From positions 186,001 through 250,000 of the forward strand of contig JAOACR010000007.1 in NCBI GenBank assembly GCA_026417735.1: a DNA stretch of 64,000 bases, in the 5' to 3' direction. The stretch comes from Kiritimatiellia bacterium (lineage in GTDB: Bacteria > Verrucomicrobiota > Kiritimatiellia > PWTM01). A program made the translations under genes and the position numbers. Below are positions 9,160 to 57,753 of this stretch, piece by piece (the stretch's first letter is position 1; every line of letters begins with the position of its first letter). Under the pieces are notes generated by a model. That model searched no databases and had not been told where the DNA came from. It saw only the letters and a list, made by a program, of their open reading frames with translations.

Positions 9160-9165
9160 TATCCT
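9160..9165 (+). promoter_or_regulatory. -10-like hexamer for leaderless start
   Basis: TATCCT, 6 bases before the GTG at 9172, with no Shine-Dalgarno in between. It directly abuts the terminator hairpin. No clear -35 at 16-18 bases (that stretch is inside the hairpin). Confidence 0.4.
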
Positions 9166-9171
9166 AAATGC

Positions 9172-12171
9172 GTGAGTTCAGCGTCTCGCTCCAATCCCGG
9201 TCGTTTTCGCGTTGAGCCCCAGCCTCGGCTTCGTTTGCCGCTACCGGTGGCAATGGGGCTCGCAGCGTTCGTCCTGTTTGTGGGAACCATCGCACGGACC
9301 CCCATCCCCGGGCCATCTGTGGATTCGATCGTGCGGGGCGCTGGTCTGGACGGTGCACCGATGCTGACGCGTCCCATCTGGGCCGGGCTGCTGCGGGCAC
9401 TCTCAATGGTGCCCCTCGGCGCGATCTATCAACGGGTCCATGCGCTGTCAGCGTTGCTGGGGGCGGCGGCAGTGGTCATGGTCGTCTGGTTGGGGCGCCG
9501 TTGGTTCCCGAAGTGGGTCGGCATGGGGACCGCTGGCTCTGGCAACGAGCGGGAGGCGGTGGCGGGTGCGCTGATCGCGGGGACGGTACTGGCGCTGCAA
9601 GGACCGTTTTGGATCTCAGCGACGCGCGCCTCGCCGGAGATGCTGAGCCTTGTGCTCGTGCTGGGCGTGATGGTGCTGACGGAACTGGCGGTGACTCGGC
9701 GGCGTCTCGGATGGGGGATCGCGGCCGGTGCGCTGGCGGGCGTCGCCGTCGTGGAATCACCGGTCGGGGCGCTGCACGTGCCGGTGGTGCTGCTGCAAGC
9801 CGCCGGCGCGCTGGCGGACGATCTGACGGCGCCAGTGAAGCCGGATCGGCGACGGCCTGTAGTGGCGGTCGCCGGTGCGTTTCTGGCCGGCGCGGTGGTG
9901 CCGCTGGCTGCGGTGACGACCGTGCTGGCGGCATCGCCGCTGCGGGATGCCCTTGGCTTGAGAACGGTGGGAGCGCTGTTGCGCGCGTTGGTACGGGCGC
10001 ATGCGGCGCAGGTGCGGGAATCGTTGCCCCCCCTCGGATGGCTGCTGACCGCTTTGGTGACGGTCGTCCCTGTGGGCGTGGTGTTGTGGGCGGTCTCTTC
10101 ACCGGTGCGCCGTCGCCGGGTGCGGATGAGTGTGGCGGCGGGAATTCTGACGTGTTGGGGTCTGGCGGTGCTGCTGCATACGCCGTTGGCGCCGTGGCCG
10201 ACGCTGCCCTCGCCGCTGCCTTCCCCTTTTCCCTCGTTGTGGGTGGCGGTCTGGTTGGGGGCGGGCGTGGCGATGGGAGCGCGAGTGCTGCGCGATACCT
10301 TGCTGGCGAAGTTGGCACCGCGCGTTGCGATGGCCGGTGGGCTGGTGTTGGCACTGGCTGGCGCAGTTCGCGCGTTTCCGTACGTCGATGACCGGGCGCT
10401 CCGAGCGGCGGGGTGGGTAGGGGAGGGCATTGCGCGCGAATTGGCGCCCGCAGCCTGGGTGGTCAGCGGCGGAGGATGGGACGGAGTCGTGATGGCGGTC
10501 GCGCGACAGCGACAGGCTGCTCCCCGATGGGTTCGGCTGGATTTGGCGCGGGAGTCGGAATACCTGGCCCGGCTTTCCGCATACCCGTGGGGAACGCCGC
10601 TGGCGAAAGCGATGCTGCCGGTCGGACTGGAGGCCTGGCTGCCGCTGTGGTTCGAGGTGGTCCCTACCGCCCGGACGAACGCGGTGACGTTCGACCTGCC
10701 GCACTTCTTCGAGGCCACCGTGGGGGCGGCGGTGCCGGGGCTCTGGATTTATCGCAGCGTGGCGGGCGCGCCGCCGCCGGTTGGCGAGATCGAACGCTGG
10801 CGGCGTGATGCGGAACGGTACCGGGCGCTCTGGCAACGTGGTCTCGGGCCCTATCGCGGAGTCGGCGGGATGGCGCTCCGCGAAGCTTCGCGGACGATGA
10901 ACGATCTTGCGGTGCGGCTGGAGGAGATGGAGCGGCCGGACGTCGCGATGCGCGCGTATCACGCGGCGCTGGCCGCGGATCCGGACAATATCGTTGCGGC
11001 GCTGAACCGGGCCCGGCTGGCGCGACGAATGGAGCGGCTGGAGGCCGATCGAACTGAGCAGGAGCTGATGCGGTTGGTGGAAACGTACGCGGGCCGTTTG
11101 GACCTGCTGCGCGTCCGGGTGCAGTTCGGGAGGATTCGGGATCCCGCATGGCTATTTGAGCGCAGCCGGCAGCTGGCGAGAGTCGGCCGGCTGGATGAGG
11201 CGATCACGGAGCTGGGGCAGGCGATGATCATCGGCGGTACCAACGACCTTGCGGTGGCGGCGGTGGCGCGTCTGCTGGCGGCAAAGGGGCGGTGGGAGGA
11301 GGCACGGGCAGCGCTGGATGAGGGTGAACGTCGGTTTCCGAACAGTCGATCGATCGCCACCACCCGCGAGTGGCTCGTCGACCTGCAGGAGGGCGCCGAG
11401 AGCGAACGTGGAGGGCCGGATGATCTTGCAAGGGCAGCGATGCACGTGTTGCGCGGCGAGTGGACGGCCGCGGAGTCGGCGCTGCGGTCTCATTTGGAAC
11501 GCACGCCAGATGATCCGGCGGTGGCGGCGCTGGGCGGATTGGTGGCGCTGAATCGGGGTGACCTCCACAGTGCGCGAACGCTGTCGGAGCGCGCGGTGCG
11601 AAGAGACCGACCACGTCCCCCCCTCGCATACCTCACGCTGGCGGCCACCGCGATGGCGGAAAACCGTTGGCTCGACGCGCGCCGAACGCTGGAACAGGCG
11701 CTCGGAGAATATCCCAACCTGCTGGCCGCGCGGCGGTTGCTGACGGTCTGGGCGCATCAACAGCGCGACTCCGCGGCGCTGAACACTCATCTGGTGGGCT
11801 GGCTGCGGCAGAGCCCGAAGGAACCCACCGCGCTGCAGTTGCTGGCCGACCGCTATGCAGAACTTCGGCAATTCGACCGCGCGGAGGCGGTCCTGCGATT
11901 TCTCGCGGAGCGGTACCCTTCCGCCACCCACTTCAACGGTCTGGCATGGACGCTCTGGCGGCAGGGCCGCGCGGACGAGGCGTTGCCGGCCGCGGAGGAA
12001 GCGGTGCGACGCGCCCCGACTTACGCGGACGCGTGGGCGAACCTCGCGGCGATCCGCTGGGATTTGGGACGGCGCGACGAAGCGATGGCTGCGCTTGCAG
12101 AGGCTGAGCGACTTTCGCCCACGAGCGAAACCGTTCGCGCGCGCGCCGCTCTGCTCCGCGGCGCGAACTAA
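9172..12171 (+). CDS. Polytopic membrane protein with C-terminal TPR domain (GT39/DUF2723-like)
   Basis: 999 residues. The first half has about ten hydrophobic helices, starting at 'MGLAAFVLFVGTIART', with a layout like DUF2723 / protein-O-mannosyltransferase-like (GT-C) membrane proteins common in this phylum: an early luminal loop (PGPSVDSIVRGA) and multiple helices with charged turns. The second half (from about residue 560) is a string of TPR units ('MRAYHAALAADPDNIVAALNRA', later 'AEEAVRRAPTYADAWANLAAI'). A transfer of sugar from a lipid carrier to surface molecules is a plausible role, but I see no definite catalytic motif. The GTG start fits a leaderless promoter; the ATG at 9253 is an alternative. 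The stop overlaps the convergent avtA stop by 3 bases. Confidence 0.7.
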   Translation: MSSASRSNPGRFRVEPQPRLRLPLPVAMGLAAFVLFVGTIARTPIPGPSVDSIVRGAGLDGAPMLTRPIWAGLLRALSMVPLGAIYQRVHALSALLGAAAVVMVVWLGRRWFPKWVGMGTAGSGNEREAVAGALIAGTVLALQGPFWISATRASPEMLSLVLVLGVMVLTELAVTRRRLGWGIAAGALAGVAVVESPVGALHVPVVLLQAAGALADDLTAPVKPDRRRPVVAVAGAFLAGAVVPLAAVTTVLAASPLRDALGLRTVGALLRALVRAHAAQVRESLPPLGWLLTALVTVVPVGVVLWAVSSPVRRRRVRMSVAAGILTCWGLAVLLHTPLAPWPTLPSPLPSPFPSLWVAVWLGAGVAMGARVLRDTLLAKLAPRVAMAGGLVLALAGAVRAFPYVDDRALRAAGWVGEGIARELAPAAWVVSGGGWDGVVMAVARQRQAAPRWVRLDLARESEYLARLSAYPWGTPLAKAMLPVGLEAWLPLWFEVVPTARTNAVTFDLPHFFEATVGAAVPGLWIYRSVAGAPPPVGEIERWRRDAERYRALWQRGLGPYRGVGGMALREASRTMNDLAVRLEEMERPDVAMRAYHAALAADPDNIVAALNRARLARRMERLEADRTEQELMRLVETYAGRLDLLRVRVQFGRIRDPAWLFERSRQLARVGRLDEAITELGQAMIIGGTNDLAVAAVARLLAAKGRWEEARAALDEGERRFPNSRSIATTREWLVDLQEGAESERGGPDDLARAAMHVLRGEWTAAESALRSHLERTPDDPAVAALGGLVALNRGDLHSARTLSERAVRRDRPRPPLAYLTLAATAMAENRWLDARRTLEQALGEYPNLLAARRLLTVWAHQQRDSAALNTHLVGWLRQSPKEPTALQLLADRYAELRQFDRAEAVLRFLAERYPSATHFNGLAWTLWRQGRADEALPAAEEAVRRAPTYADAWANLAAIRWDLGRRDEAMAALAEAERLSPTSETVRARAALLRGAN

Positions 12172-13436
12172 TCCCACGCGTCACGGATCACCGCACCGAT
12201 GCGTTCGAGACCCCGCCACACCACCTCGTCCGGCTGTGCAAAGCTCACGCGCAGGCACTCGTCACGGTGCGGATCGGTTTGGTCGGCGCCGGCGAAGAAG
12301 TGGTGGCCGGACACCACGATCACGCCGCGCTCCTTCAGCCGCCGGTAAAGCTCGCGCGACCCCATGCCGAGTCCCGGCAGCCAGACCCAGAAAAAGAACG
12401 CTCCCTCCCGCACGTGCAGCCGCCACGGGCGGTCAGCGGGCCAGTACTCCGCAAGCCAGAGTCGCGCCGTCTCCGCTTTTCGATCATAGAAAGGGCGGAG
12501 CTCTCGTCGGCAGAGATCAAAAAGTTCGCCACTGCGCAGCAGCGGCTCCACGAGCGCTGGGCCAAGGTTACCCCCTGCCAGCGCCGCGATCGCGTGCATT
12601 TCTGCGACACGGTGTGCCCACCGTTCTCCCGCCACCACGATACCGGTTCGCACGCCGGGCAACCCGAGCTTCGAGAGGCTCAGCAGCCAGATCACCCGTT
12701 CATTCCAGAACGGACGGACCTCGCCGGTCACAATGTCCGGGAAAGGTGGACCATAGGCGCCGTCGACGATCAGCGGGATGTCGCGCTCCCCCGCCAGCGC
12801 GGCCAGATCGCGCAGCTCCGCATCGGTGATCACGTTGCCGGTGGGATTCGTCGGCCGCGAGAGCAGAATCGCGACCGCGTCTGGCGGCGGCTCGTCTCCG
12901 CTGAGGCGATACTTGAACTCTCGCTCTCCCTGCAACTCAATCCTCCGCCGGCTGGCCACGAGCCAGTCACGCCGATGCAGGAGGTCGGCGTACCCGATGT
13001 ACTCGGGTGTCATCGGCAGCCAGATGCGGCCGCGCCGGCCTGCAAGGAGATGGGCGAGATAGAAGATCGCGCCCTGTCCGCCGTGGGTCAGCGCAACATT
13101 CGCGGCGGTGAGGGGCCAGCCGTAGCGCGCGCGCAGCGCCTCCGCGACCGCCTCCCGGAACGCGGGGCTACCCTGCGGCTCCTCGTAGATGCCGAGCAGC
13201 CGCTCAAACCGGTCGTCCTCTCGCAACAGCTCCTCCATCCGGCGCCGCCACACGTGTTCTGCCGCCGCGACTCGTGCCGGATTTCCGCCGCCGAGCATCA
13301 GCAGAGGGGTCCGACCGCCGAGCGCCGCACCGAGGTCGTCCATCAGCTCGCGGATTCCGCTCGGCCAGCCGGCGGGCTCGCCGGGCTCCGGCAGCTTGGG
13401 GTGGTTGGCGCGTTGCGGGGGATCGCGCGGGCTCAC
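12168..13436 (-). CDS. avtA: Valine--pyruvate aminotransferase
   Basis: 422 residues, a full-length match to the AvtA family of fold-type I PLP enzymes that interconvert alanine and 2-oxoisovalerate (valine/alanine metabolism). Family landmarks are clear: MLGGGNPA near the N-terminus, 'PEYIGYAD', 'SRPTNPTGNVITD', the PLP-lysine segment SLSKLGLPGVRTG (Lys near 255) and 'GHHFFAG' towards the end. The GTG start overlaps the stop of the ankyrin gene (GTGA), so the two are one operon with the ankyrin gene first. The 3' end overlaps the convergent membrane-protein gene by a few bases. Confidence 0.92.
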   Translation of the reverse strand: MSPRDPPQRANHPKLPEPGEPAGWPSGIRELMDDLGAALGGRTPLLMLGGGNPARVAAAEHVWRRRMEELLREDDRFERLLGIYEEPQGSPAFREAVAEALRARYGWPLTAANVALTHGGQGAIFYLAHLLAGRRGRIWLPMTPEYIGYADLLHRRDWLVASRRRIELQGEREFKYRLSGDEPPPDAVAILLSRPTNPTGNVITDAELRDLAALAGERDIPLIVDGAYGPPFPDIVTGEVRPFWNERVIWLLSLSKLGLPGVRTGIVVAGERWAHRVAEMHAIAALAGGNLGPALVEPLLRSGELFDLCRRELRPFYDRKAETARLWLAEYWPADRPWRLHVREGAFFFWVWLPGLGMGSRELYRRLKERGVIVVSGHHFFAGADQTDPHRDECLRVSFAQPDEVVWRGLERIGAVIRDAWD

Positions 13437-14125
13437 GGCGGCGGGCTTGACCGACGGGCGGCGGCCTCCTCCAGCAGACGCACGACCTGTGCGTGACCGT
13501 TCTTGCGGGCGAACTCGATGGCGCGGTCCTGGTCTGCGTCGCGAAGCTCCGGATCGGCTCCGCGCTCCAGCAGCAGGCGCACCACCTCTGCCTGGCCTTC
13601 CGCGGCCGCGAACATCAGCGCGGTCCAGCGTTCGCCTCGGTCGGCCGCATTCACATCCGCACCGGCATCCAGCAGCAGCCGAACCACATCTGCATGCGGG
13701 CCGGTGGCCGCGTACATCAGCGCAGTGCGGCCGATCTCGTCGCGGCGGTTCACATCGGCGCCGTAACCGATCAGTCGCCGGCAGAGCGTGGTGTGCCCAT
13801 TGAACGCGGCGAGCATCAGCATCGTGCGGCCTTGTTCACCGACCGCGTTCGGATCGAGCAATCCCTCGCGCACCACGCGGTCAATGAGTTCCTCCATGCC
13901 GTTCATCGCGGCTTCCGCGTACTCTCGAGGTAGCGTGAGCAGCCCGCGGCCGCGCGCAGCTGGCGCAGACGGCGGCGTCGGGTTCGCGGGCGCAGAGGGC
14001 GGCGCCGGCGCCGGGGCGAGGACGGCGGGCGGCTTCGCCGGCGGCGGTGGCGGCGGAGCGGAGCGATCGCGCCGTCCACAGGCACCCATCAAGGCGCCCA
14101 CGCCGACGAGTGTCGTGATCCCCAT
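13433..14125 (-). CDS. Ankyrin-repeat lipoprotein
   Basis: 230 residues from the ATG at 14125. The N-terminus (GVGALMGACGRRD) is a short signal with a lipobox-like cysteine, then a Pro/Ala-rich linker (about 25-60) and four ankyrin repeats with typical turns such as 'GRTMLMLAAFNGHTTLCRRLI', 'GADVNRRDEIGRTALMYAA' and 'VVRLLLERGADPEL'. It is likely anchored in a membrane and facing the periplasm, where ankyrin repeats serve protein binding. A TACACT hexamer 7 bases before the ATG supports this start. The link to avtA is translational coupling; why the two are joined is unknown. Confidence 0.85.
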   Translation of the reverse strand: MGITTLVGVGALMGACGRRDRSAPPPPPPAKPPAVLAPAPAPPSAPANPTPPSAPAARGRGLLTLPREYAEAAMNGMEELIDRVVREGLLDPNAVGEQGRTMLMLAAFNGHTTLCRRLIGYGADVNRRDEIGRTALMYAATGPHADVVRLLLDAGADVNAADRGERWTALMFAAAEGQAEVVRLLLERGADPELRDADQDRAIEFARKNGHAQVVRLLEEAAARRSSPPP

Positions 14126-14132
14126 GCGAACG

Positions 14133-14138
14133 AGTGTA
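14133..14138 (-). promoter_or_regulatory. -10-like hexamer for leaderless start of ankyrin gene
   Basis: TACACT on the minus strand, 7 bases before the ATG at 14125. A GAGAGG lies further upstream, too far to act as a normal ribosome site. No good -35 seen. Confidence 0.4.
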
Positions 14139-14291
14139 CCTCTCACCCCGGTCTCCCGATGTCGGTGCGATCGGACATCCGAGCATAGAAACGCGCGGTG
14201 CGAACCGCAATGCATAGGTCGCTGAGCTGAGTGGCCGCCCGCCCGCGCTGCAAACCGGCCGGCAAACGCGGGGCCCGCGACCGCCGCACGG

Positions 14292-15260
14292 TCAGCGCGA
14301 CAGCGCGCGCCGCCACCATTCGACCGTGCGGCGCAGACCTTCGTCCAGCGAGACACGAGCGCGCCATCCGAGCCGTTCCCGGATTTTCGTCGGGTCGAGC
14401 TCGATGAACGGTTGATCCGAGGCGATCGGCCGGGCCGGATAGTCGGGCGGATATTCGCCGAACACAATTCGCCGTGCGGGATAGCCGACCAGTTTCGCGA
14501 TTCGCAGCGCGAGCTCGCGGTTGGTGACGATCTGGCCGGCCGCCGCATTGAACGCCTCACCGGCGGCTTCCGGATGAGCCATCGCGGCGCGATAGGCGGC
14601 CACGTGATCGCTGACGAACATGTAGTCCCGCACGGAGTCCGGCGCGCCGACGTGCACCGGCTGCCGCCGCAGCATGCGCGTGATCAGGTATTCGACGAGG
14701 AAGTTCGTCTCGATCTTGCGCCCGTAGGTGTTGACGCACCGCAACACGATCGCGGGCAGGCCGTACACCGGTGTCATCATTCGCAGATAGGTGTCGGTGA
14801 CTGCCTTCGTGTTCGCGTACGGGCTGGAGGGCTGCAACGGCAGATCTTCGCGCAGCGGCGGAACGGCCTGGATGCCGTAGACCTCGGCGGTGGAGGCGTA
14901 GAGCAACAGCCGGCGGGACGGCTCGCGCAGTTCCAACATCGCGTGGGCGAGGTTCAACGTACCGACGATGTTCGCCTGCACGTACGCGAATGGCATTTCA
15001 AACGAGTGGCGCACCGGACTCATCGCGGCGAGGTGAATCACCACTTCCGGGTCCGCCTTCCGCAGCGCGCCGAGCACGCCGATGAAATCCGTCAGCTCGC
15101 TGGTGATCAGCCGCACGCCGCGCAAAAAGGGCGCGAGGCGGACCGCATCGCGGCTGGTGGAATGGCGCACCAGCCCCCAGACCTCGTGCTCACGGACCAG
15201 CGACTGCGCCAGATGGCTGCCGATGAAGCCGGTGACGCCGGTGATCAGCACCCGGCTCAT
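14292..15260 (-). CDS. NAD-dependent sugar-nucleotide epimerase/dehydratase
   Basis: 322 residues, extended SDR family. The Rossmann motif GVTGFIGSH sits at the N-terminus, 'HLAAMSPVRHS' around residue 85, and the catalytic YANTK (Tyr-x3-Lys) near residue 155. The overall pattern resembles GDP-mannose 4,6-dehydratase / GDP-6-deoxy-sugar reductase type enzymes, but substrate cannot be fixed from sequence. The start overlaps the stop of the methyltransferase gene (ATGA), placing it second in a minus-strand operon for making a modified nucleotide sugar for a surface glycan. Confidence 0.88.
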   Translation of the reverse strand: MSRVLITGVTGFIGSHLAQSLVREHEVWGLVRHSTSRDAVRLAPFLRGVRLITSELTDFIGVLGALRKADPEVVIHLAAMSPVRHSFEMPFAYVQANIVGTLNLAHAMLELREPSRRLLLYASTAEVYGIQAVPPLREDLPLQPSSPYANTKAVTDTYLRMMTPVYGLPAIVLRCVNTYGRKIETNFLVEYLITRMLRRQPVHVGAPDSVRDYMFVSDHVAAYRAAMAHPEAAGEAFNAAAGQIVTNRELALRIAKLVGYPARRIVFGEYPPDYPARPIASDQPFIELDPTKIRERLGWRARVSLDEGLRRTVEWWRRALSR

Positions 15261-16546: not shown

Positions 16547-16652
16547 GAAGGACTCCCCGCGGCGCGGGCCATCCGAATACTCGATCGGCGGAGCGGACGC
16601 AAGCCGCCCGGTGCTCCTCGCGACGGCATTCGGCAAGGGGGCGCGACTGCGG

Positions 16653-16658
16653 TACAAC
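16653..16658 (+). promoter_or_regulatory. -10-like hexamer for leaderless start of GT2 gene
   Basis: TACAAC, 7 bases before the GTG at 16666; TTCGGC lies 18 bases upstream as a weak -35. No Shine-Dalgarno in the last 20 bases. Confidence 0.35.
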
Positions 16659-16665
16659 ATCGGGC

Positions 16666-18560: not shown

Positions 18561-18567
18561 GCTGCGC

Positions 18568-18596
18568 AGCGTAGGCGACGGGGGTGTGGCGGACAA
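18568..18596 (-). promoter_or_regulatory. Leaderless promoter of GT2 gene
   Basis: Minus strand TTGTCC (18591-18596), 17-base spacer, TACGCT (18568-18573), then 7 bases to the GTG at 18560. Best example in the window of the TTG-N17-TANNNT-N7-start pattern. Confidence 0.6.
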
Positions 18597-18614
18597 GCGG
18601 TCCGGTCGCTTCGG

Positions 18615-25157: not shown

Positions 25158-26449
25158 GGTCGCCCGCCTCCACTCGCCGGATCCTGATGGGCATGGCATG
25201 GGGGGCGGCGACCGGTCTGCTGCTCCATGCGGTTCGCGCGCGTTGGCCCGCGATCGCGCCGGCAATGGACCGCCATGTGATCGGGGGTATGTTCGATGCG
25301 GTGGGGAGATTGTTCCTGTCCGCGATCCAACTGCTGGTGGTGCCGCTGGCGTTGGTGTCGCTCTCGGTCGGCATGGCCGGAGCCGGTTCCGTGCGCCGGC
25401 TAGGTCGAATCGGCGCGCGGGTGATGGGATTGTACGTGGGCACCACCGCGGTGGCGGTCAGCCTGGCCCTTCTCCTCGCGCACGTTGTGGGGCCGGGCCG
25501 AGGCGCATCGCGGCCGGCTGCGGTCACGGCCGGCCAGCCGGGCAGTGCACCCTCCGCTTGGGAGATGTTGGGCGGGCTGGTCCCGCCGAACCCCGTTCGC
25601 GCGATGGCGGAGGGGAACATGCTGCAGGTGATCGTGCTTGCGCTGCTCGTGGGCGCGGCGCTGGTGCAGATGGGGACGCGTTCCGGCCGGCTGCGCGAGC
25701 GGCTGGAAGATTGGAACGACCTGCTGCTGGCGATGGTGGGCCTGGTGATGCGTGCGGCGCCGGTCGGCGTGTTCGCGCTGATCGCCCGTGTGCTGGCCGC
25801 CCAAGGGCCGGCGGTCGCCGGTCGGCTGCTTGCCTACATGGGAACGCTGCTCGCCGCGCTGGCGTTGCATGTTGCGATCGTCTACGGGACGTTGATTCGA
25901 GGGCTGGCGAAGCTGCCGTTCGGACTGTTTCTGCGCCGGTTCCGCGAAGCGCTGCTGGTTGCGTTCAGCACGTCCAGCAGCAACGCAACGCTGCCGGTCA
26001 CGCTCGACGTGCTGCAAAACCGCGTGGGCGTGTCGAGATCCATCGCCGCGTTCGCGGTGCCGCTCGGTGCGACGATCAACATGGATGGCACGGCGATCAT
26101 GCAAGGCGTCGCGACGGTGTTCATCGCGCAGGTCTACGGCGTTCCGCTGGGGTGGAACGCGGCGGTGCAGATCGTGGCGGTGGCGACGCTGGCCTCGATC
26201 GGGACGGCCGGCGTCCCCGGTGTCGGTCTCGTGATGCTGGCGATGGTGCTCCGCCAGGTCGGATTGCCGCTGGAGGGAATCGGGTTGGTGCTGGGCGTTG
26301 ACCGGCTGCTGGACATGGCGCGGACCGCAGTGAACGTGCTGGGCGACGGTGTCGTCGCGACGGTGGTCGCGCGGCTCGAAAATGAACTGGATGAATCAGT
26401 GTTGCGAGGTGGGGCTCGTACCGAGCCGCCACCGACGATGGACCGTTGA
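25154..26449 (+). CDS. Dicarboxylate/amino acid:cation symporter (DAACS family)
   Basis: 431 residues from the GTG at 25154, with AAGGTGG about 10 bases upstream. Eight or more membrane helices plus the two re-entrant hairpin motifs of the glutamate-transporter fold: STSSSNATLPVT near residue 273 and GATINMDGTAI near 307, the latter containing the sodium/substrate-binding NMDG. Transports dicarboxylates, glutamate/aspartate or neutral amino acids with sodium or protons across the inner membrane; the exact substrate is not decidable here. Likely co-transcribed with the dehydrogenase-like gene. Confidence 0.92.
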   Translation: MRSPASTRRILMGMAWGAATGLLLHAVRARWPAIAPAMDRHVIGGMFDAVGRLFLSAIQLLVVPLALVSLSVGMAGAGSVRRLGRIGARVMGLYVGTTAVAVSLALLLAHVVGPGRGASRPAAVTAGQPGSAPSAWEMLGGLVPPNPVRAMAEGNMLQVIVLALLVGAALVQMGTRSGRLRERLEDWNDLLLAMVGLVMRAAPVGVFALIARVLAAQGPAVAGRLLAYMGTLLAALALHVAIVYGTLIRGLAKLPFGLFLRRFREALLVAFSTSSSNATLPVTLDVLQNRVGVSRSIAAFAVPLGATINMDGTAIMQGVATVFIAQVYGVPLGWNAAVQIVAVATLASIGTAGVPGVGLVMLAMVLRQVGLPLEGIGLVLGVDRLLDMARTAVNVLGDGVVATVVARLENELDESVLRGGARTEPPPTMDR

Positions 26450-26474
26450 GCCCGCCGCCGAACGGTGCTAGAGT
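26446..26474 (+). promoter_or_regulatory. Promoter-like element before secreted protein gene
   Basis: TTGAGC (26446-26451), 17-base spacer, TAGAGT (26469-26474), then 9 bases to the ATG at 26484: near-leaderless geometry. The -35 overlaps the symporter stop codon. Confidence 0.45.
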
Positions 26475-32484: not shown

Positions 32485-32490
32485 TATTCT
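32485..32490 (+). promoter_or_regulatory. -10-like hexamer for leaderless start of rlmI
   Basis: TATTCT, 7 bases before the ATG at 32498; only pyrimidine-rich sequence lies between, with no Shine-Dalgarno. -35 unclear. Confidence 0.4.
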
Positions 32491-43603: not shown

Positions 43604-43609
43604 GCGGCC

Positions 43610-43637
43610 ACTGTAGCGCGTTGGGCCCGGCCAGCAA
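43610..43637 (-). promoter_or_regulatory. Leaderless promoter of solute-binding protein gene
   Basis: Minus strand TTGCTG (43632-43637), 16-base spacer, TACAGT (43610-43615), 6 bases to the GTG at 43603. Confidence 0.55.
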
Positions 43638-43655
43638 GGCCGGGCGCACCGGGAT

Positions 43656-43684
43656 TTGCGGCGGGCCGGTGGGGGCGGTAGGCT
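43656..43684 (+). promoter_or_regulatory. Leaderless promoter of dgt
   Basis: TTGCGG (43656-43661), 17-base spacer, TAGGCT (43679-43684), 7 bases to the ATG at 43692. Lies back to back with the promoter of the divergent gene. Confidence 0.55.
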
Positions 43685-43691
43685 GCCAGGG

Positions 43692-49088: not shown

Positions 49089-49105
49089 CCGCCCCGGCGG
49101 GGCGG
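49089..49105 (-). other. Hairpin in rpsO-pnp spacer
   Basis: CCGCCCC, loop GGC, GGGGCGG just after the rpsO stop in the 130-base spacer. In E. coli this spacer holds a terminator and an RNase III site that controls pnp; here no T-run follows, so a processing or stabilising hairpin is more likely. Confidence 0.4.
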
Positions 49106-49118
49106 CGCCCGTCTGCGC

Positions 49119-49382
49119 TCAATGCCGCAGACCGAGTTTTTCGACCACCCGACGGTACCGTTCGTGGTCCGTTCGCTTCAGATAGTCCAGCAGGCGGCGT
49201 CGCTTGCTGACCATCAGAATAAGACCCCGGCGGGAGGCGTGATCCTTGCGGAACCGCTTCAGATGTTCCGTCAGCGAGGTGATCCGATTCGTCAGCAGTG
49301 CGATCTGCACTTCCGACGAGCCGGTATCCTTCTCGTGACGCTGGAACTCCCGTGGGATCTTGCTGGTGGCCGCGCTGTGCAT
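49119..49382 (-). CDS. rpsO: 30S ribosomal protein S15
   Basis: 87 residues from the ATG at 49382 with GAAGGTTG six bases upstream. Hallmark segment '[20 protein letters not shown]' then '[18 protein letters not shown]' and '[12 protein letters not shown]'. Binds 16S rRNA early in small-subunit assembly. Start of the rpsO-pnp-nth operon. Confidence 0.96.
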
Positions 49383-49490
49383 GAAGCAACCTTCGTCTCT
49401 CTCTGTTCCTCTGTTGTTGTTTTGCTCGGCGGAGACGGTACAAAACGCCGCTGCCGAACGCAAGCCCGACGGACGGCGGCGCCGCGGTGC

Positions 49491-52400
49491 TCAGCGTGGG
49501 CGTCGGCGTCCGAGCACCACCGGACCGAGCAGGCCGGAGGGCAACAGCGGCGTTCCCGGCCGGTCAGGGTTCCAGGTGGTCCACGTCTGCCGCTGTTCGG
49601 GCGGCGGCGCGGCGTCCGCAATCAGCCGGTTGGGCCACAGGTTCGCCACCTCGATTTCGAGGTCGTTTGGTCCCTCGCGCAACGCGCTGGTAAGCTCGAC
49701 GCGGAACGGCGGCGTCCACACCACGCCGACTTCTCGCCCGTTGCATCGCACGCGTGCGATCACCTCGACGCGACCGAGATCCAAATACCAGCGCGCCCCC
49801 GGCTGGATCGACTCCACCGGCAACCGCACCTGTTGCCGGTATGTCGCGACGTCGGCGAAGTGACGGATGCGTTCGTGGGGGTGTTCGTTCCCCGCCTGGA
49901 GCGCCTCGAACACCCCGGCCGCCGGCGCACCCCGGCCGGGCTGGAAGGCGACCTGCCAGGGACTGTCCAGTTGCAGCACCGGTTCGGGCGCGCCGTCGAG
50001 GGGGGCGCCTCCGCTGCTGGGCGGCGGGCCCCCGGCGAGTACGATGAACACCGAGCCGTGTGGCGCCAGTTTCAGCGGCACACGCAGGCGAGCGTCGGGT
50101 TCGGTCGCCGCAGTAAGGTCGACGATGCGGCCGTCCTGCGGGTCCCACAGCGACACGTGTGGGGCCTAAGCTCGGAGGCGACAGTTCGCGCAAACCGCGG
50201 AAGGAGCCGGGTTCGCGACGAAGTAGATGCCGATGCCGCCCCTTCGGTGGTGAAAGTGGCGCAGTGGTATGTCCGACTCGAAATCCGGCAACACACCGAT
50301 CTCCGACAGCACCGGGGCGGCTCGTTCGTAGGGCGGATAGGGCGGTGGAACTCGGAGCGCGAAATCGCGGCTTGCACTTCGGCCCGACGGGGGCGTGCCG
50401 GAAGGGCCGATCGGGCGCGCCCGAACCCAAGGGCCCTCGGGCTGGGTGGAGCACTCTCAGGATGAGTCGGTGGAGACGACGCGGCGCCGTCCGTCCGGAT
50501 AGCTGAACTCGAGCGTCGCGTTCAGGCCAGCGAGGTTGGAGCCGTCCCCGCCGTTGGTGGCCACGATCTCAACGAGATTAGTTCTCGGCCGGAGTCTGGC
50601 CAATACGTCCATCGCCACCAACTCAAGGAAGGTGGCCTCCTTCCCGACCGTCCGGCCGTTGACCAGGGCGCGAAACGCGTTGTCCGCGGTGGCGATGAGT
50701 CGCGCGGGCAAGGGGCGAGAAGCCTCCTCAAGGGCAAGGCAGAAACGGAAATGGCGCCGCCCCGGCGGCGCTCGCATCGGATCGGTTTCGGGAGACCAGG
50801 TCCACTGGCTGGCGGCATCCAGACGGCGGGTGACGGTTGGGGGCGCCGCCGGAGTGGGTGTGGAGCGCGGCGGCGCGAGCAGCCGTCCGCGCCCGACACG
50901 CCGCCAGGTCGGTTGTGTCAGTCGCGCGACGCCCGAGAGCTCGTCGGCGATCTCGCGCACCTTTGCGTCCGCGGGCGCCCCGCCGGCGCGTGAGGGCGAG
51001 GCGAGCGGGCGCGGCCCCATGGCAGTGGCGGCGTTGCGCACCAGCGAGCGGACCGTCTCCACGAGCTCCAGCGTCATCGATTCCGTTTCGGGCAGCACGA
51101 GCAGCGCGTACTCCGCACCCCCCTCAAAGGCGATTCGCCCGTTGCGAACGCGCGCGCCGGCGCAGCGTTGCCGGGTCGCACCCCCCAAACGCGTGGGCGC
51201 GGAACGACGGCATTTCCGGGTCGCCCCCGAGCGCGGTGGGGGGCGGGCGGAACACCTGCGGCGCGCCTTCCGGCACGAGGTAGAGAAGAGAATGTCCCCC
51301 ACCGGCGCGCCGAGGCGTAGCAGGTGCTGGCAGCGGGCGATGTAGCGGTGATATGCGAACGACATGACCCACCACGTCTGGGTCTATTGGCAGTGAACGC
51401 CGTAGGGGCCCATCGTCATGCCCGGCCAGCGGTCGGGGTGCGGCTGATGCGCGAAGGTTGCACAAGAGGAGCCGGTTGAGGCCGATGGGGAACGCCGAGT
51501 CGGTTTGCCCCTTCATCGCGCCGGGGTGCAGTCGCCAGTCCTTGCCCGGCGTGGCGGTGAACGATTCGGCCGCGACAATCGGCCGGCCCATTCTGTGGGC
51601 GATGGAGACCGCCTCGATGCAGTTGTAGACCGTGTTGAAACCGTAGCCGACGGCCCAGAATTCTCCCCGGGGAATGTACGCGACGGAGCCCAGAAACAGG
51701 TCCACGCAGAGATTCATGTCGTACGGCTCGATGGAGAGCTGCAACCTGTGCCGGTGAGCCATCTCCCGAAGCACGCCCACGTGATGACCCACCACGAACT
51801 CCTGCGCGGTCTACCGCGGGTCCCAAAGGAACTTCTCCGTCTCTACCGCTCTGTGGACCACACAGCCGTCCAACGCGGGTAGGAACGGCAAAAAATCGTA
51901 ACCGCGCCATCGCCGGAAGTCGACTGACCAATTCTGCGAGCTCATCTCCGCCCTATCTATCGAAAGTGCAGCGTGGTCAGGCCGACGCCGCGGGGGCGGC
52001 GCTCCCGCATCTCGAGGAGCGGTCGGGGAAAGTTCGTGAAGTGCGGTTCGAGGGGGGGCCGACTGAACTTGTCCGTCTCCCAACCTACTCCCGGCTCGGG
52101 CGCGGGGCGGGTGGTTTGGCCGGTCAGCGTGCGGCCGAACCAAAGCACGGTCCGTGAGCCGGGGGGCACCTCCCACTCCAGGCCTCCCTCCTGCCGCAGC
52201 TGGTCGCTGAGGTCGAGCCCACGATCGGCGGGGTGCACTGCTGCGGCGGGACCGGCGGCGCAGCCGCGGGTCGGCCAGCCGCGCCAGCACGCCCGGCTGC
52301 GACGAAAACGGAGCGCGGTGATCAAGGGCCTTTTTCTCCGCGTCCGGTATCCGCGCCTCACCCTCCGGTATGGGGAACGCAAGCAGGGCGACGTCTTGGT

Positions 52401-52880
52401 AGAACTCGCGCGATGTCGTGCGAAGGTGCGGCGGCAGCGTGCGCTCACCGAAAAAGGACGGTCTTGGTCGGGGACTGGGCAGTACCACGCATACTCGCGC
52501 CGGACCGGCGAGGCTGATGGAGGCGGCTACCAGCTGCTACATCGCCTGGTCCGGCGAAACCCTGAGCCACCGGTTCCACACCAGCCCGGTCCGGTGCCGA
52601 GCGCGATTTCCAGGCCGAGCCGTCCTGCTTCTCGCACCGCGTGACCGATGCCGGCCCGATGCATCGTCTCGGGATCGGCGGTCTTCGCCTCGCGGGAGAG
52701 GTTGCCGACCATGAACTACCAGTACACCCAGGGGTGGGCAGCATCGGGTGGCTCTCGGAACTGTCAGGCGTGCGCACGGATGGGCAAAACATCATTCGCG
52801 GCGGAGGCGCTCGCCAGCAGAGCTGTGAAGCCGGCACGAAGGCGGCGGGCGGGCGACGTGGTGGACACCCGACATGGGGT
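49491..52880 (-). pseudogene. Decayed GH106-type alpha-L-rhamnosidase
   Basis: Pieces of one large glycoside hydrolase lie in order on the minus strand but in changing frames. N-terminal: EPPDAAHPWVYW, stop TAG at 52716-52718, then FMVGNLSREAKTADPETMHR, directly joined to AVREAGRLGLEIALGTGPGW (internal deletion). Middle: 'YQDVALLAFPIPEGEARIP', 'LEWEVPPGSRTVLWFGRTL', 'FLWDPR' then TAG near 51809, 'HRLQLSIEPYDMNLCVDL', 'GYGFNTVYNCIEAVSIAHRM'. Then a carbohydrate-binding-like part ('ADNAFRALVNGRTVGKEA'), 'GIYFVANPAPSAV', another in-frame TAG at 50166-50168, and an intact C-terminal domain (49491-50156) ending 'LLPSGLLGPVVLG'. At least three stops, several frameshifts and one deletion: not functional. 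Would have removed rhamnose from plant or algal polysaccharides. Confidence 0.85.
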
Positions 52881-52936
52881 GATGATGGTGCACGCGGACG
52901 CCGGACTCCGGAGACGGTGCGGGGAACCGGGGTCCG

Positions 52937-53317
52937 TCAGGGCGAGCGAATCGAGAACTCGCCGTCGTACTCTCGCCAGTCCCAATCCGAGACCCGCACC
53001 CGGATCACGGTGAGCCGGGCGGTGACCACATCCACGTCCCATGCCGCGTGGCGCGGGCCCTCGCGCTGGTCGAGTACGACCCGGTGCAGACCGGGGCGCA
53101 GGTCCCAGGCGGCATCGTCGTAGCGGTCGAGCAGGCCGGCGTCGCCGCCGTTGATGTACACCCGGATGCGGTCGCCGGTGAAGTTGTCGAGAATCAGGCT
53201 GCCGTAGCCGGCGGGCGGGGTGTGGTCGTAGTCTCGCTCCTCGCAGCCGCCCGCCAGCAGCAGCGCCAGCAGCGTCACTGCTGCGAACCCCACGCGGCTG
53301 GTTCGTGCGCCAGACAT
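52937..53317 (-). CDS. Small lipoprotein with beta domain
   Basis: 126 residues with GGAGG ten bases before the ATG. Lipoprotein signal with lipobox LLAGGC (Cys about 25). Mature part: 'GSLILDNFTGDRIRVYINGGDAGLLDRYDD' region and 'PGLHRVVLDQREG', an arrangement like small beta-sandwich (PEGA-like) domains. Function unknown. Own promoter, divergent from the exonuclease gene. Confidence 0.7.
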   Translation of the reverse strand: MSGARTSRVGFAAVTLLALLLAGGCEERDYDHTPPAGYGSLILDNFTGDRIRVYINGGDAGLLDRYDDAAWDLRPGLHRVVLDQREGPRHAAWDVDVVTARLTVIRVRVSDWDWREYDGEFSIRSP

Positions 53318-53337
53318 TGCCGAATGCCTCCGGGATC

Positions 53338-53366
53338 ACTGTACGCCCGATTTGCGGCCGGGCCAA
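53338..53366 (-). promoter_or_regulatory. Promoter of lipoprotein gene
   Basis: Minus strand TTGGCC (53361-53366), 17-base spacer, TACAGT (53338-53343), 20 bases to the ATG with GGAGG between. Confidence 0.55.
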
Positions 53367-53391
53367 GTGGGCTCAGCCAGGTCGGCAAGGA

Positions 53392-53421
53392 TTGCGGAGG
53401 AGGGGGGGGCTCCGGCATAAC
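53392..53421 (+). promoter_or_regulatory. Possible promoter of exonuclease gene
   Basis: TTGCGG (53392-53397), 18-base spacer, CATAAC (53416-53421), about 21 bases to the ATG. Confidence 0.35.
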
Positions 53422-53442
53422 AGGAGCGGAAACCGACCGGTA

Positions 53443-54309
53443 ATGCTGCCGAAGATCCGCGATGTCGTGTGGGTGTTTGATTGCGAGTGGGTGCCCGATC
53501 CGGCTGCCGGCCGGCTGCTGTACGGATTGGCGTCCACCGCGACCGATGCGGAGGTGCTCGCCGAGATGTGGCGCCGGAATGGCGCGACCGATGAGAATCC
53601 GTTTCCGTTTCTGAAGTATGCTCTCTGCCGGCTGGTCAGCATCGCGGTGGTCGAGCGGCGGGTGAAGAAGGGCGCGGACCCCGCGGTCACGCTACTGTGG
53701 TTGCCGCGCCAGCCCGAAGACCCGGCGCAGGCGGCCGAGCCGGACATGCTGCGCAAGTTTCTCGAGGCGGTGGGTCGGCACCGGCCGCAGCTGGTCGGCT
53801 TCAATTCGCAAGGGTCGGACTTGCGGGTGTTGCTGCAGCGCGCGGTGGTGCACGGCCTGCCGTTGCCGGAGTTCTGTCGCCGGCCGCAGAAACCGTGGGA
53901 CGAGGAGCCGGATTATCTCGCGCGGTTCAATCAAAACCCCTGGAACGTGGACCTGCTAGAGACGCTCGGCGGGGGAAGTCGCGCCGCCACACCCTCGCTG
54001 CACGAAATCGCCGTACAGTGTGGCATCCCCGGCAAGTTCGACGCGGAGGGCCCGCAGGTCGCGCACCTGTGGCTGGCCGGTCAGTGGCCGGCAGTGATCC
54101 GGTACAACTGTTGCGACGCGATCTCGACGTACCTGCTCTGGTTGCGGATGGCCTTCGTGGGCGGTCTGTTCGACCGCGACCAGTACGAGCTGGAGCAGGA
54201 GCTGGTGCGCGAGATGCTGATGAACCTCGCCGAGCAGCCGGACGGGGAATGGGCGGAGCGGTATCTTGACGAGTGGCAACGGCTGGAGGAAGCGACAGGT
54301 CAGCTTTGA
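53443..54309 (+). CDS. Predicted 3'-5' exonuclease (PolB-like, DEDD)
   Basis: 288 residues. Matches the PF10108-type family of stand-alone exonucleases related to the proofreading domain of family B DNA polymerases. DEDD metal ligands: VFDCEW (Asp, Glu), 'LVGFNSQGSDLRVLL' (Asp) and YNCCDAISTYLLWLR (Asp). Other segments: 'NPWNVDLLETLGGG', 'PSLHEIAVQCGIPGKF'. Cytoplasmic; substrate not known. Single gene, followed by comB. Confidence 0.85.
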   Translation: MLPKIRDVVWVFDCEWVPDPAAGRLLYGLASTATDAEVLAEMWRRNGATDENPFPFLKYALCRLVSIAVVERRVKKGADPAVTLLWLPRQPEDPAQAAEPDMLRKFLEAVGRHRPQLVGFNSQGSDLRVLLQRAVVHGLPLPEFCRRPQKPWDEEPDYLARFNQNPWNVDLLETLGGGSRAATPSLHEIAVQCGIPGKFDAEGPQVAHLWLAGQWPAVIRYNCCDAISTYLLWLRMAFVGGLFDRDQYELEQELVREMLMNLAEQPDGEWAERYLDEWQRLEEATGQL

Positions 54310-54379
54310 GCGCACCGCGCCAGCACGGTTCCGAAGATTGGACGGCACAAGGGAGGGTGCGTCCAACCTTTGGACACGA

Positions 54380-55123
54380 ATGGGCCGCCGGTCCGTACGC
54401 GCGGTGATTGTCCGGTTGGCCAGAGGTCTGGAGGGGGCGGCAGCCGCCCGCGGTGACGTGGTGATTGTGGACGTGTTCCGCGCGATGACGTCTGCGGCGG
54501 TGCTGCTGGCGCGTGGCGTTGCGGAACTGCTCTGGACGCCGGACGTCGCCGAGGCGCTGCGCTGGCGCGCGACGGGGCGGGTGGACGTGTGCGCGGGGGA
54601 GGTGGAGGGCCGCCCGCCGCCGGGGTTCGACCACGGCAACTCGCCGGCCGAGCTGTTGCGCGCCCCGGTGGTGGGGCGGCGGGTGGTCCTCTCTACGCGC
54701 GCGGGGGCGGCCGGGCTGGCCGCGGCGGCGCCGAGCGCCCGACGGCTGTGGGGCGCGGCGCTGGTGACCCTGGAGGCGACCGCGTGCGCTCTTCGAGCAA
54801 TGGCACCCGAGATGGTGACGATCGTCGCGATGGGGTGGGCGGGACGCGAGCGGACCGCGGAGGATGAGTTGTGTGCGCGCGCGCTCGCGGCGCGGTTGGA
54901 GGGGCGCCGGGTGGACGGGCGCCAGCTGGTGCGGCGCCTGCGGGCATCCCCGGAGGCACGCAAGTTCGGGGATCCGGCGCGGCCGTGGTTTGCGGCGGAG
55001 GACCTCGAGATTGCGCTCGATCTCGACCGGTACGAGTTTGCGATCGCGGTGGCGCGTGGCGATGACGGCGTGCTCCGCTCGCGCGCGGTCCCCGCGGAGG
55101 GCACCGGCGATGGTGGAGCCTGA
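54380..55123 (+). CDS. comB: 2-phosphosulfolactate phosphatase-like protein (ComB family)
   Basis: 247 residues. ComB-type motifs: DVVIVDVFRAMTSA, 'CAGEVEGRPPPGFDHGNSPAELL' (split over the conserved GE and FD.GNSP) and 'VLSTRAGAAGL'. In archaea ComB makes sulfolactate for coenzyme M; in bacteria family members have uncertain substrates. The start is not well supported (no ribosome site close by). The last 14 bases overlap the photolyase gene. Confidence 0.75.
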   Translation: MGRRSVRAVIVRLARGLEGAAAARGDVVIVDVFRAMTSAAVLLARGVAELLWTPDVAEALRWRATGRVDVCAGEVEGRPPPGFDHGNSPAELLRAPVVGRRVVLSTRAGAAGLAAAAPSARRLWGAALVTLEATACALRAMAPEMVTIVAMGWAGRERTAEDELCARALAARLEGRRVDGRQLVRRLRASPEARKFGDPARPWFAAEDLEIALDLDRYEFAIAVARGDDGVLRSRAVPAEGTGDGGA

Positions 55124-56468
55124 ACGGGTGGCGGTGTTGAATCCGGCGCCAGAGCGACCGGACGGCCGGTATGTGCTGTATTGGATGCAGCAGTCGCAAC
55201 GCGCGGAGTGGAATCCGGCGCTGGCGCGCGCCATCGAGCATGCGAACCGCTTCCGGCGCCCAGTCGTTGTCGGCTTTGCGCTGACGCCGTCGTACCCAGA
55301 TGCGAATGCGCGGCACTACTGTTTCATGCTCGAAGGCCTCGAGGAGGTTCGTCGCACGCTCCAGACGCGGGGCATCGGCTGGGTGTTGCGGATCGGGGAT
55401 CCTCCGGAGGTGATTGCGGCGCTCGCTTCGGAGGCCGTGCTGGTCGTCACCGATCGTGGGTACATGCCGGTGCAGGTTGCGTGGCGGCGCGAGCTCGCGG
55501 CGCGGGTGCACGTGCGGCTCGAGCAGGTCGAGGGCGATGTCGTGGTGCCGGTGGAGACCGCCTCGGATCACGAGGAGTACGCCGCGCGCACGCTTCGGCC
55601 AAAGATCCACCGGCATCGCGCCAGGTTCTTGACCCCGTTCGCGGAGCCGGAAGTGGCGGTGCGCTGCGATGCGGCGCCGGTGGGGGAGGTGTGGACGAAC
55701 ACTGGGGACCTGCTGCGACGGCTTCGGGTGGACGGTTCCGTTGCGCCCTCCACCATCTTTCATGGCGGCACTTCGGAGGCGCGGCGACGGCTGCGGCGGT
55801 TCATCGCGGCCCACCTCGGCGTTTACCCGGAGCTGCGCAACGACCCGACCGCGGGCGCACAGTCGGAGCTAAGCCCCTATCTGCATTTCGGGCAGATTTC
55901 GCCGGTGGAGGTCGCGAGGGCGGTGCTCGAGGCGGAGGCCCCCCGCGCGGCGAAAGAGGCATTCTTGGAAGAGCTCATCGTCCGGCGCGAGCTTTCGATG
56001 AATTTCGCGCGCTACAACCCGCGCTGCCAGCACTACGACGCGCTGCCCGCCTGGGCGCGCGCGACACTCGCCGCGCACGCCGGCGACCCACGCCCGCATG
56101 TGTACACGCTCGAGCAATGGGAGGCTGCTGCGACGCACGATCCGGCCTGGAACGCCGCGCAGCGCGAGATGGTGATCACCGGGAAGATGCACAACTACAT
56201 GCGTATGTACTGGGGCAAGAAGATCCTCGAGTGGAGCCGGTCGCCAGAGGAAGCGTTCGCGATCGCGCTGCGCTTGAACGATCGCTACGAGCTGGACGGC
56301 CGCGATCCGAACTCCTGCGCCGGTGTCGCGTGGTGCTTCGGCAAGCACGATCGCCCGTGGGCGGAGCGGCCGGTGTTCGGGACGGTGCGCTATATGAGCG
56401 CCGCGGGTCTGCACCGGAAGTTCGATGTGGAGGAGTACATCCGCCGCTGGCGCGATGCCCCGCGCTGA
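55110..56468 (+). CDS. Class II CPD photolyase
   Basis: 452 residues with GGAGG nine bases before the ATG, inside comB. N-terminal alpha/beta domain ('YVLYWMQQSQRAEWNPAL') and C-terminal FAD domain: 'SELSPYLHFGQISPVEVA', 'EELIVRRELSMNFARYNP', MHNYMRMYWGKKILEW, 'DGRDPNSCAGVAWCFGKHDRPW'. The last two are diagnostic of class II enzymes, which use blue light and FADH- to split cyclobutane pyrimidine dimers. Suggests a lit habitat. Confidence 0.94.
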   Translation: MVEPERVAVLNPAPERPDGRYVLYWMQQSQRAEWNPALARAIEHANRFRRPVVVGFALTPSYPDANARHYCFMLEGLEEVRRTLQTRGIGWVLRIGDPPEVIAALASEAVLVVTDRGYMPVQVAWRRELAARVHVRLEQVEGDVVVPVETASDHEEYAARTLRPKIHRHRARFLTPFAEPEVAVRCDAAPVGEVWTNTGDLLRRLRVDGSVAPSTIFHGGTSEARRRLRRFIAAHLGVYPELRNDPTAGAQSELSPYLHFGQISPVEVARAVLEAEAPRAAKEAFLEELIVRRELSMNFARYNPRCQHYDALPAWARATLAAHAGDPRPHVYTLEQWEAAATHDPAWNAAQREMVITGKMHNYMRMYWGKKILEWSRSPEEAFAIALRLNDRYELDGRDPNSCAGVAWCFGKHDRPWAERPVFGTVRYMSAAGLHRKFDVEEYIRRWRDAPR

Positions 56469-56481
56469 ACGGGCGCCGGGA

Positions 56482-56510
56482 CTGGCGGGACGATGCAGTT
56501 TCGCTATGCT
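56482..56510 (+). promoter_or_regulatory. Leaderless promoter of cinA
   Basis: CTGGCG (56482-56487), 17-base spacer, TATGCT (56505-56510), 7 bases to the ATG at 56518. An ATG at 56506 lies inside the -10. Confidence 0.45.
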
Positions 56511-56517
56511 GCGCCGC

Positions 56518-57753
56518 ATGGCGGGCGTGGAACTGGTCGCAACCGGCGCGGAACTGCTCAGCGGTCGCACTGTGAACACTCATGCGCAGCGGCTGGCGCA
56601 CGCGCTGGCGCCGCTCGGGCTGCGACTCACGCGCGAGACCTCTGTGCCGGACGATCGCGCCGCGATTGCGGACGCGGTGCGCGGGGCGCTCGCGCGCGCG
56701 ACGGTCGTCGTTGTCACCGGCGGACTGGGGCCGACGGAGGACGACGTCACGCGCGAAGCGGTCGCGGAGCTGCTCGGCGCGGATCTGCGGTTGGACGAGC
56801 CCTCGCTCGAACGGATTCGCGAGCGGTGCGAGCGCTACGGGCAGACGCTCACCGAATCGCGCCGGCGGCAGGCGCTGGTGCTGGAGGGTGCGGAAGTGTT
56901 GCCCAATCCCGTCGGCGCGGCGCCCGGGGAACGGCTGACGCTGCCGGACGGGCGGACGCTGTTTCTGCTGCCCGGCCCGCCGCGCGAGTTTGAGGCGCTG
57001 CTGAACGGTCAGGTGTTGCGCTGGCTGCGCGAGCATGCGGGCGCGGAACCGGTGGTCGAGGAAGTGCGAATGATCTGCGGGCTGGGCGAGTCGGACGTGA
57101 TCGAACGCCTGCAGGCGGCGGGATTTGATCCGCGGCCGTTCGAGCTGGCCTACTGCGCGGCGCCCGGGCAGCTCGAAGTGCGGCTGACCGGCACTGCGGC
57201 GGACGCGTCGCGGCTGGCCGCGCTGGCACGGCAACTGGAGGAGATCCTCGGCGAGCACGTTTACTCGCGGCAGCGCGAGGATCTCGCCGCCGTAGTGGCG
57301 CGCGAACTGCTGAGCCGCGGCGCAACGCTCGCGGTCGCGGAGTCGTGCACCGGTGGGCTGATCATGCAACGGCTGACCTCGGTGCCCGGCAGTTCGCAGT
57401 GGTTCCGCGGCGGGGTGGTCGCCTACGCGAACGACGTGAAAACCCACTGGCTGGGCGTGCCGGAGCCGATGTTGCGAGAGCATGGTGCGGTCAGCGAGCC
57501 AGTCGTGCACGCGATGGCACTCGCGGCCCGCGAACGCTTCGCGGCCGACTACGCGCTGGCGACCAGCGGCATCGCCGGCCCCGGCGGCGGCACGCCAGAG
57601 AAGCCGGTGGGGCTGGTCTGGTGGGCGCTGTGCGATGCGCAGACCACACTGGCTCGGTCTCGCCGTTTCCCGGGCGATCGCGAGCTGGTTCGCCAGTGGG
57701 CGGCGCAGTTCACTCTGGATCTGCTCCGACGGCGGCTTCAGGGAGTGGTCTGA
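56518..57753 (+). CDS. cinA: CinA family nicotinamide-nucleotide amidohydrolase / competence-damage protein
   Basis: 411 residues. N-terminal MoCF-like pyrophosphatase domain (VELVATGAELLSGRTVNTH, 'TGGLGPTEDDVTREAV', 'FLLPGPPREFEAL') and C-terminal CinA deamidase domain ('AVAESCTGGLIMQRLTSVPGSS', 'YANDVKTHWLGV', 'ATSGIAGPGGGTPEKPVGLVW'). Recycles nicotinamide mononucleotide to nicotinic acid mononucleotide and cleans up damaged pyridine nucleotides. Start chosen to match the family N-terminus and the hexamer 7 bases upstream. Confidence 0.93.
   Translation: MAGVELVATGAELLSGRTVNTHAQRLAHALAPLGLRLTRETSVPDDRAAIADAVRGALARATVVVVTGGLGPTEDDVTREAVAELLGADLRLDEPSLERIRERCERYGQTLTESRRRQALVLEGAEVLPNPVGAAPGERLTLPDGRTLFLLPGPPREFEALLNGQVLRWLREHAGAEPVVEEVRMICGLGESDVIERLQAAGFDPRPFELAYCAAPGQLEVRLTGTAADASRLAALARQLEEILGEHVYSRQREDLAAVVARELLSRGATLAVAESCTGGLIMQRLTSVPGSSQWFRGGVVAYANDVKTHWLGVPEPMLREHGAVSEPVVHAMALAARERFAADYALATSGIAGPGGGTPEKPVGLVWWALCDAQTTLARSRRFPGDRELVRQWAAQFTLDLLRRRLQGVV

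Follow-up and report, generated by a model that had tools for sequence, protein, structure and literature searches.

Candidate leaderless genes behind sigma70-type promoters in a Kiritimatiellia genome and its class

Nine genes of a Kiritimatiellia MAG raise the question of whether promoters can be placed so close to start codons that the mRNA begins without a leader. The genes lie in the window, i.e., the whole stretch of DNA that was analysed (64,000 nucleotides, C7:186001-250000). The MAG spans 3.09 Mb in 24 contigs, is 96.8% complete and has a GC content of 0.68. In the GTDB taxonomy, Kiritimatiellia and Akkermansia muciniphila are both found under Verrucomicrobiota. NCBI places the class Kiritimatiellia in the phylum Kiritimatiellota of the PVC group. 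The closest named matches to the dGTPase of the window come from MAGs labelled Lentisphaerae, Verrucomicrobia, PVC group and Kiritimatiellia or Kiritimatiellales, which suggests the class Kiritimatiellia. A sequence-only reading of the window proposed that the nine genes lack a Shine-Dalgarno (SD) site, carry a TANNNT hexamer at a nearly fixed distance before the start codon and are transcribed as leaderless mRNAs. The sequence contains each of the nine hexamers at the spacing and start codon given in that reading; the spacer is the number of bases between the hexamer and the start codon. The elements are as follows:

9160..9165, forward strand: putative -10 TATCCT, spacer 6 to GTG 9172 (TPR / TMEM260-like protein), no TTG at 16-18 bases
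14133..14138, reverse strand: hexamer TACACT, spacer 7 to ATG 14125 (ankyrin-repeat protein), mixed evidence
16653..16658, forward strand: hexamer TACAAC, spacer 7 to GTG 16666 (glycosyltransferase), not TANNNT and unsupported
18568..18573, reverse strand: putative -10 TACGCT, spacer 7 to GTG 18560 (glycosyltransferase)
18591..18596, reverse strand: putative -35 TTGTCC, 17 bases from the -10 of 18560
26446..26451, forward strand: putative -35 TTGAGC, 17 bases from the -10 of 26484
26469..26474, forward strand: putative -10 TAGAGT, spacer 9 to ATG 26484 (protein without a Pfam match)
32485..32490, forward strand: putative -10 TATTCT, spacer 7 to ATG 32498 (RlmI-like 23S rRNA methyltransferase), no TTG at 16-18 bases
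43610..43615, reverse strand: putative -10 TACAGT, spacer 6 to GTG 43603 (solute-binding-protein-like)
43632..43637, reverse strand: putative -35 TTGCTG, 16 bases from the -10 of 43603
43656..43661, forward strand: putative -35 TTGCGG, 17 bases from the -10 of the dGTPase gene
43679..43684, forward strand: putative -10 TAGGCT, spacer 7 to ATG 43692 (dGTPase)
56505..56510, forward strand: putative -10 TATGCT, spacer 7 to ATG 56518 (CinA), no TTG at 16-18 bases

Eight of the nine sites have a TANNNT hexamer whose centre lies about 10 bp ahead of the start codon, the position described for TA-led genes, while the TACAAC of 16666 falls outside the pattern under which it had been listed. An independent scan (TANNNT at spacers 6-9 from any in-frame start within 90 nt of a called start) recovers the same eight sites in the window and no others. 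A TTG-type -35, claimed for several of the genes, is found 16-18 bases above the hexamer in four of the nine (18560, 26484, 43603 and 43692). The claimed absence of SD sites stands less well for two genes: an SD-like GAGG lies 13 bases ahead of the 14125 start, and 16666 is preceded by an SD site in both relatives that could be judged. The ribosome site claimed for fabI as a leadered counterexample is not borne out, as the stretch 3-14 bases ahead of its called start (20159) contains no GGAG, GAGG or AGGA. The 88-bp gap between the divergent genes 43603 and 43692 (43604-43691) holds two complete, back-to-back predicted leaderless promoters with their -35 elements 18 bases apart. Upstream of gene 9172, a perfect 13-base inverted repeat (9127-9139 and 9144-9156) with an A-run and a T-run resembles a two-way terminator and ends 3 bases before the -10; this hairpin-plus-promoter unit is present also in the congener G001.

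Whether such hexamers exceed chance was examined across the genome. Genes were called with a Markov coding model that is blind to upstream signals and that covered 2.21 of 3.09 Mb (71%). The starts of 1572 of the 1587 called genes entered the spacer, shuffle, -35 and SD counts, the other 15 being dropped for having fewer than 150 bases upstream or an N. At spacers 5 to 12, TANNNT occurs 3, 31, 20, 9, 16, 12, 6 and 3 times, compared to a background mean of 4.33 per spacer over spacers 30-120; internal NTG codons, used as a control, give no TANNNT spacer peak. Spacers 6-7 account for 51 of the 1572 genes versus 6.65 +/- 2.3 in 200 dinucleotide shuffles (maximum 13), and spacers 6-11 for 92 genes (hereafter the candidates) versus 19.1 +/- 4.1 (maximum 30). 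The peak at 6-7 bases that the sequence-only reading had made the test of its proposal is therefore present and lies beyond the shuffles. The excess at spacers 6-11 amounts to about 73 of the 1572 genes (5%). Unseeded and most seeded runs of EM motif discovery returned SD-like motifs only, while seeding with TANNNT yielded a blurred [GT]AT..T motif whose spacers peak at 6-7; direct counts with controls replaced this approach.

Part of this signal could consist of chance hexamers or wrongly assigned start codons, with the real starts lying elsewhere behind SD sites. Chance alone would supply about 19 of the 92 candidates, and calls from coding potential differ for three of the nine starts in the window (9253 vs 9172, 43579 vs 43603 and 56506 vs 56518). 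As a general explanation, however, chance and misplaced starts are highly unlikely: the TANNNT excess is far beyond the shuffles, half of the candidates pair the hexamer with a spaced TTG, and an SD-led start within 120 nt downstream is no commoner among the candidates (19/92) than among other genes (307/1480). A second alternative is that the hexamer belongs to a stretch that is AT-rich, folds weakly or binds S1, and that aids SD-less translation without any role in transcription; SD-less genes of some phyla do have AT-rich upstream regions, perhaps S1 sites, according to the part of PMC5397173 consulted. This explanation is hardly credible here, since TANNNT ranks first among 64 XYNNNZ patterns at spacer 6-7 (6.2-fold) and is the only one of the non-SD-like patterns to peak there; AANNNA reaches 1.8-fold, and AT-rich hexamers in general have no peak. 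Moreover, the TTG with which TANNNT is paired at 16-18 bases would lie outside any such mRNA.

The pairing with TTG points to promoters of the sigma70 type. Among the 92 candidates, 11 have TTG 16 bases above the hexamer, 30 have it at 17 and 5 at 18 (46/92), with 0-3 at each other gap. Hexamers located 20-59 bases from starts show TTG at the same gaps in 29, 51 and 25 of 225 genes. Since the TTG spacing is the same, the close and the distant hexamers look like one promoter class. Genome-wide, 203 TTG+TANNNT dyads are found 6-109 bases from starts, divided among spacers 6-11, 12-19, 20-60 and 61-109 as 47, 9, 111 and 36. By this dyad count, 23% of the recognisable promoters near genes would be leaderless or nearly so. 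The candidates also head transcription units more often than other genes (63/92 vs 715/1480).

Translation-side signals are in keeping with this picture. An SD-like motif precedes 13 of the 92 candidates, compared to 117 of the 225 genes with TANNNT only at 20-59 bases and 670 of the 1480 genes with no close hexamer; the candidates are thus about at the rate of control windows (278/1572), a loss that is partly mechanical because the hexamer occupies the place of the SD site. The MAG yielded no 16S gene when searched, so the anti-SD sequence is not readable from it. A pyrimidine occupies the position just before the start codon (-1) in 73% of the 51 genes with spacers 6-7 and in 41% of the 1480 others, and no such excess is seen among candidates with spacers 9-11.

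The exact position of the transcript start leaves room for another alternative, namely that the promoters are real and that transcription generally begins 2-5 bases ahead of the start codon, giving near-leaderless mRNAs that need some contact at the 5' end. Spacers of 9-11, which imply 2-4 extra bases, are found in 33 of the 92 candidates, and 22 of these 33 have TTG at 16-18 bases. As a rule for the whole set this is nonetheless improbable, to much the same degree as chance hexamers, since the main peak is at spacers 6-7 and the pyrimidine at -1 is enriched there and not at 9-11. Sorted by spacer from 6 to 11, the dyads number 15, 10, 2, 12, 4 and 4, with a dip at 8 and a second bump at 9, although the numbers are small. 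The dip may mean that leaders of one or two bases are disfavoured.

In the reading that we favour, and consider very probable, sigma70-type promoters sit so close to these genes that transcription begins with the start codon or no more than a few bases ahead of it. RNA polymerase would recognise TANNNT, about half of the time together with a TTG-type -35 located 16-18 bases further up, and would start about 7 bases past the hexamer, at the A or G that opens the start codon or close to it. The resulting mRNA would carry neither a leader nor an SD site, and its translation would depend on the 5'-terminal start codon being recognised directly. Both the exact transcript start and the leaderless mode of translation are predictions from DNA sequence. 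The favoured reading as a whole draws on the fixed position of the hexamers, the TTG pairing in half of the candidates, the background level of SD motifs, the pyrimidine at -1 and the relatives and class members described below.

Conservation is clearest for the dGTPase gene. Of 47 loci encoding Kiritimatiellota-type orthologs, three were dropped (no usable start, or a contig edge), and 36 of the 44 usable orthologs have TANNNT at spacer 5-10, compared to 4.7 +/- 2.1 in shuffles (maximum 14) and 0-2 in equal windows further upstream. TTG stands at 15-18 bases in 30 of these 36, the range being wider as TTTG was accepted too. The dGTPase arrangement spans GC contents of 0.49 to 0.72, and the bases between the elements differ. 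The chance-hexamer view is at odds with this conservation. On sequence grounds, the arrangement is real and genome-wide, and for the dGTPase gene at least it is old. It is also possible, though rather doubtful, that selection in Kiritimatiellia maintains the leaderless state of certain genes as such, the dGTPase gene (36/44, mostly with a -35) being the case in point; if so, the missing leader would be a conserved control (e.g., through the initiating nucleotide or stress ribosomes) and not drift.

The eight other genes were compared through 57 judged orthologs (identity of at least 45%, alignment start up to residue 60). Pooled, and with frames checked, TANNNT occurs at spacers 5-10 in 23 of the 57 versus 5 of the 57 at spacers 12-17. 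The genes differ widely. TATCCT-6-GTG of 9172 is kept in the congener G001, the one ortholog judged. For 18560, three of four orthologs have TANNNT at 7-8 with TTG, and for 26484 all four judged have it at 5-9 with TTG. The rlmI gene (32498) has TANNNT at 6-7 in 6 of 12 orthologs. For 43603, TANNNT at 6 is seen in 2 of 12 judged orthologs and is missing from 10, mostly beyond the near relatives. The cinA gene has TANNNT at 6-9 in 4 of 19 judged orthologs, all four within its own family, and 15 of the 19 are without it. For 14125, two of three judged orthologs have TANNNT at 5-10; the third, G001, is SD-led, as is G002 by eye, and the in-frame TANNNT-8-GTG and TANNNT-6-GTG of G003 and G006, which come with TTG, lie 14-17 codons upstream of the homologous start. 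For 16666, TANNNT occurs in one of two orthologs, at a remote TTG start, and an SD site precedes the homologous start in both. The SD-led orthologs of 14125 and 16666 are the cases in which the rival of misplaced or chance sites gains ground. With the relatives taken into account, the promoter-at-start arrangement appears to hold for seven of the nine genes proposed as leaderless examples; the evidence for 14125 is mixed and 16666 is unsupported.

A pooled scan of the relatives' loci speaks against the favoured reading. Under an order-5 model with the dGTPase genes removed, no clear peak is found (1 observed vs 1.7 expected among 90 genes, and 10 vs 6.9 among 175); alphaproteobacterial loci give 11 vs 6.7 expected in 289 genes. 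An order-3 model gives 5.3-fold and 3.3-fold enrichments with the dGTPase genes included, and says little on other genes because these were left in.

The same pipeline was applied to partial samples of 300 kb each from E. coli K-12 and from Deinococcus deserti plasmid 2, with an order-4 model for all. E. coli K-12 (232 genes) is at 0.56-fold at spacer 6-11, with one dyad and no peak, whereas D. deserti plasmid 2 (219 genes) is at 3.5-fold, with a peak at spacer 6 and one dyad. Under this model, the Kiritimatiellia MAG (1597 genes) is at 3.6-fold at spacer 6-11 with 49 dyads. The method gives a signal in a lineage known for leaderless genes and none in one whose genes are leadered. In Deinococcus the -10 mostly lacks a -35; the promoters described here often keep it.

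A TANNNT near the start is the mark of bacterial leaderless genes according to Zheng et al. 2011 (PMC3160421), in which, as far as the portion consulted goes, the groups listed as having leaderless genes (207 of 953 genomes) include no PVC group. The present genes resemble the TA-led genes of that survey (TANNNT some 12 bp ahead of the start codon, high GC, a minority beside SD-led genes), and differ from its groups in belonging to a PVC lineage and in coming with comparative evidence. For Deinococcus-Thermus, Zhong et al. 2025 (PMC12340547), consulted in part, demonstrate by mutation that the hexamer is the -10 of leaderless genes; it lies as a rule 6-7 bp ahead of the ORF, lacks a classical -35 in most cases and marks about 30% of ORFs. 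That study also scanned the whole bacterial domain. The location 6-7 bp before the ORF is shared with the Kiritimatiellia MAG, but TTG at 16-18 bases is found here in 46 of the 92 candidates and the share of genes is 5%.

The sequence-only reading also called leaderless genes notable for this phylum, which is only partly so. Cappable-seq had by 2016 placed 10% of the start sites of Akkermansia muciniphila at annotated gene starts, compared to 0.4% for E. coli (PMC4782308, consulted in part). A. muciniphila is likewise a PVC bacterium, although of another class, and its starts were measured, whereas those given here are predicted. Leaderless or S1-dependent starts are suggested for one planctomycete in the part of PMC5397173 consulted, and the titles and abstract openings searched held no measured leaderless transcripts of the PVC group beyond PMC4782308. 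Within the library searched, one paper, an anti-SD survey, mentions both leaderless genes and Kiritimatiellia. The Kiritimatiellia are thus best described as a probable new, well-supported lineage of a known mechanism. Leaderless expression would thereby be extended to an uncultured, high-GC PVC lineage on genome-wide, controlled and comparative evidence.

Breadth across the phylum was assessed by counting the pattern TTG-N20-TANNNT-N(6-8)-ATG against the same pattern with N(13-15) in 115 genomes; these counts, in which the ATG is not checked as a gene start, cover whole genomes independently of gene calling, and the class-wide claim is based on them. The MAG itself has 39 vs 16 (backward-read controls 3 and 3). 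Its own class has 2266 vs 960 (backward-read controls 637 and 585), with the close pattern the larger in 37 of 37 genomes and at p < 0.01 in 27. The other classes have 5285 vs 3831 (controls 2282 and 2223), the close pattern being larger in 67 of 78 genomes and at p < 0.01 in 23. The arrangement would then occur throughout the class and concern the smaller share of genes, most being leadered in the ordinary way. Among families, f31 (14 genomes) stands at 1365 vs 701, while f28 (270 vs 271), f38 (74 vs 71) and f41 (139 vs 145) have no excess. The ten genomes of f33 have 91 vs 57, both below the backward-read controls (111 and 98), as if such promoters may be avoided or another -10 used. The phylum mixes families with and without the arrangement, which makes the gain and loss of leaderless genes traceable. 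In G013 and G087 (family f6), many of the sites printed begin with TTGGAAA, longer than the usual -35, which might be either an extension of the -35 particular to this lineage or the site of a regulator.

Starts of this kind are misplaced by gene finders that look for SD sites, and cinA is an example in which the -10 box itself supplies an in-frame ATG. In TATGNT with a spacer of 7, the ATG of the hexamer is in frame with the true start, 12 bases upstream of it, and the gene finder picks this ATG; cinA was thus called at 56506 and not at 56518. At an offset of +12 from the called start, five TANNNT sites are found genome-wide.
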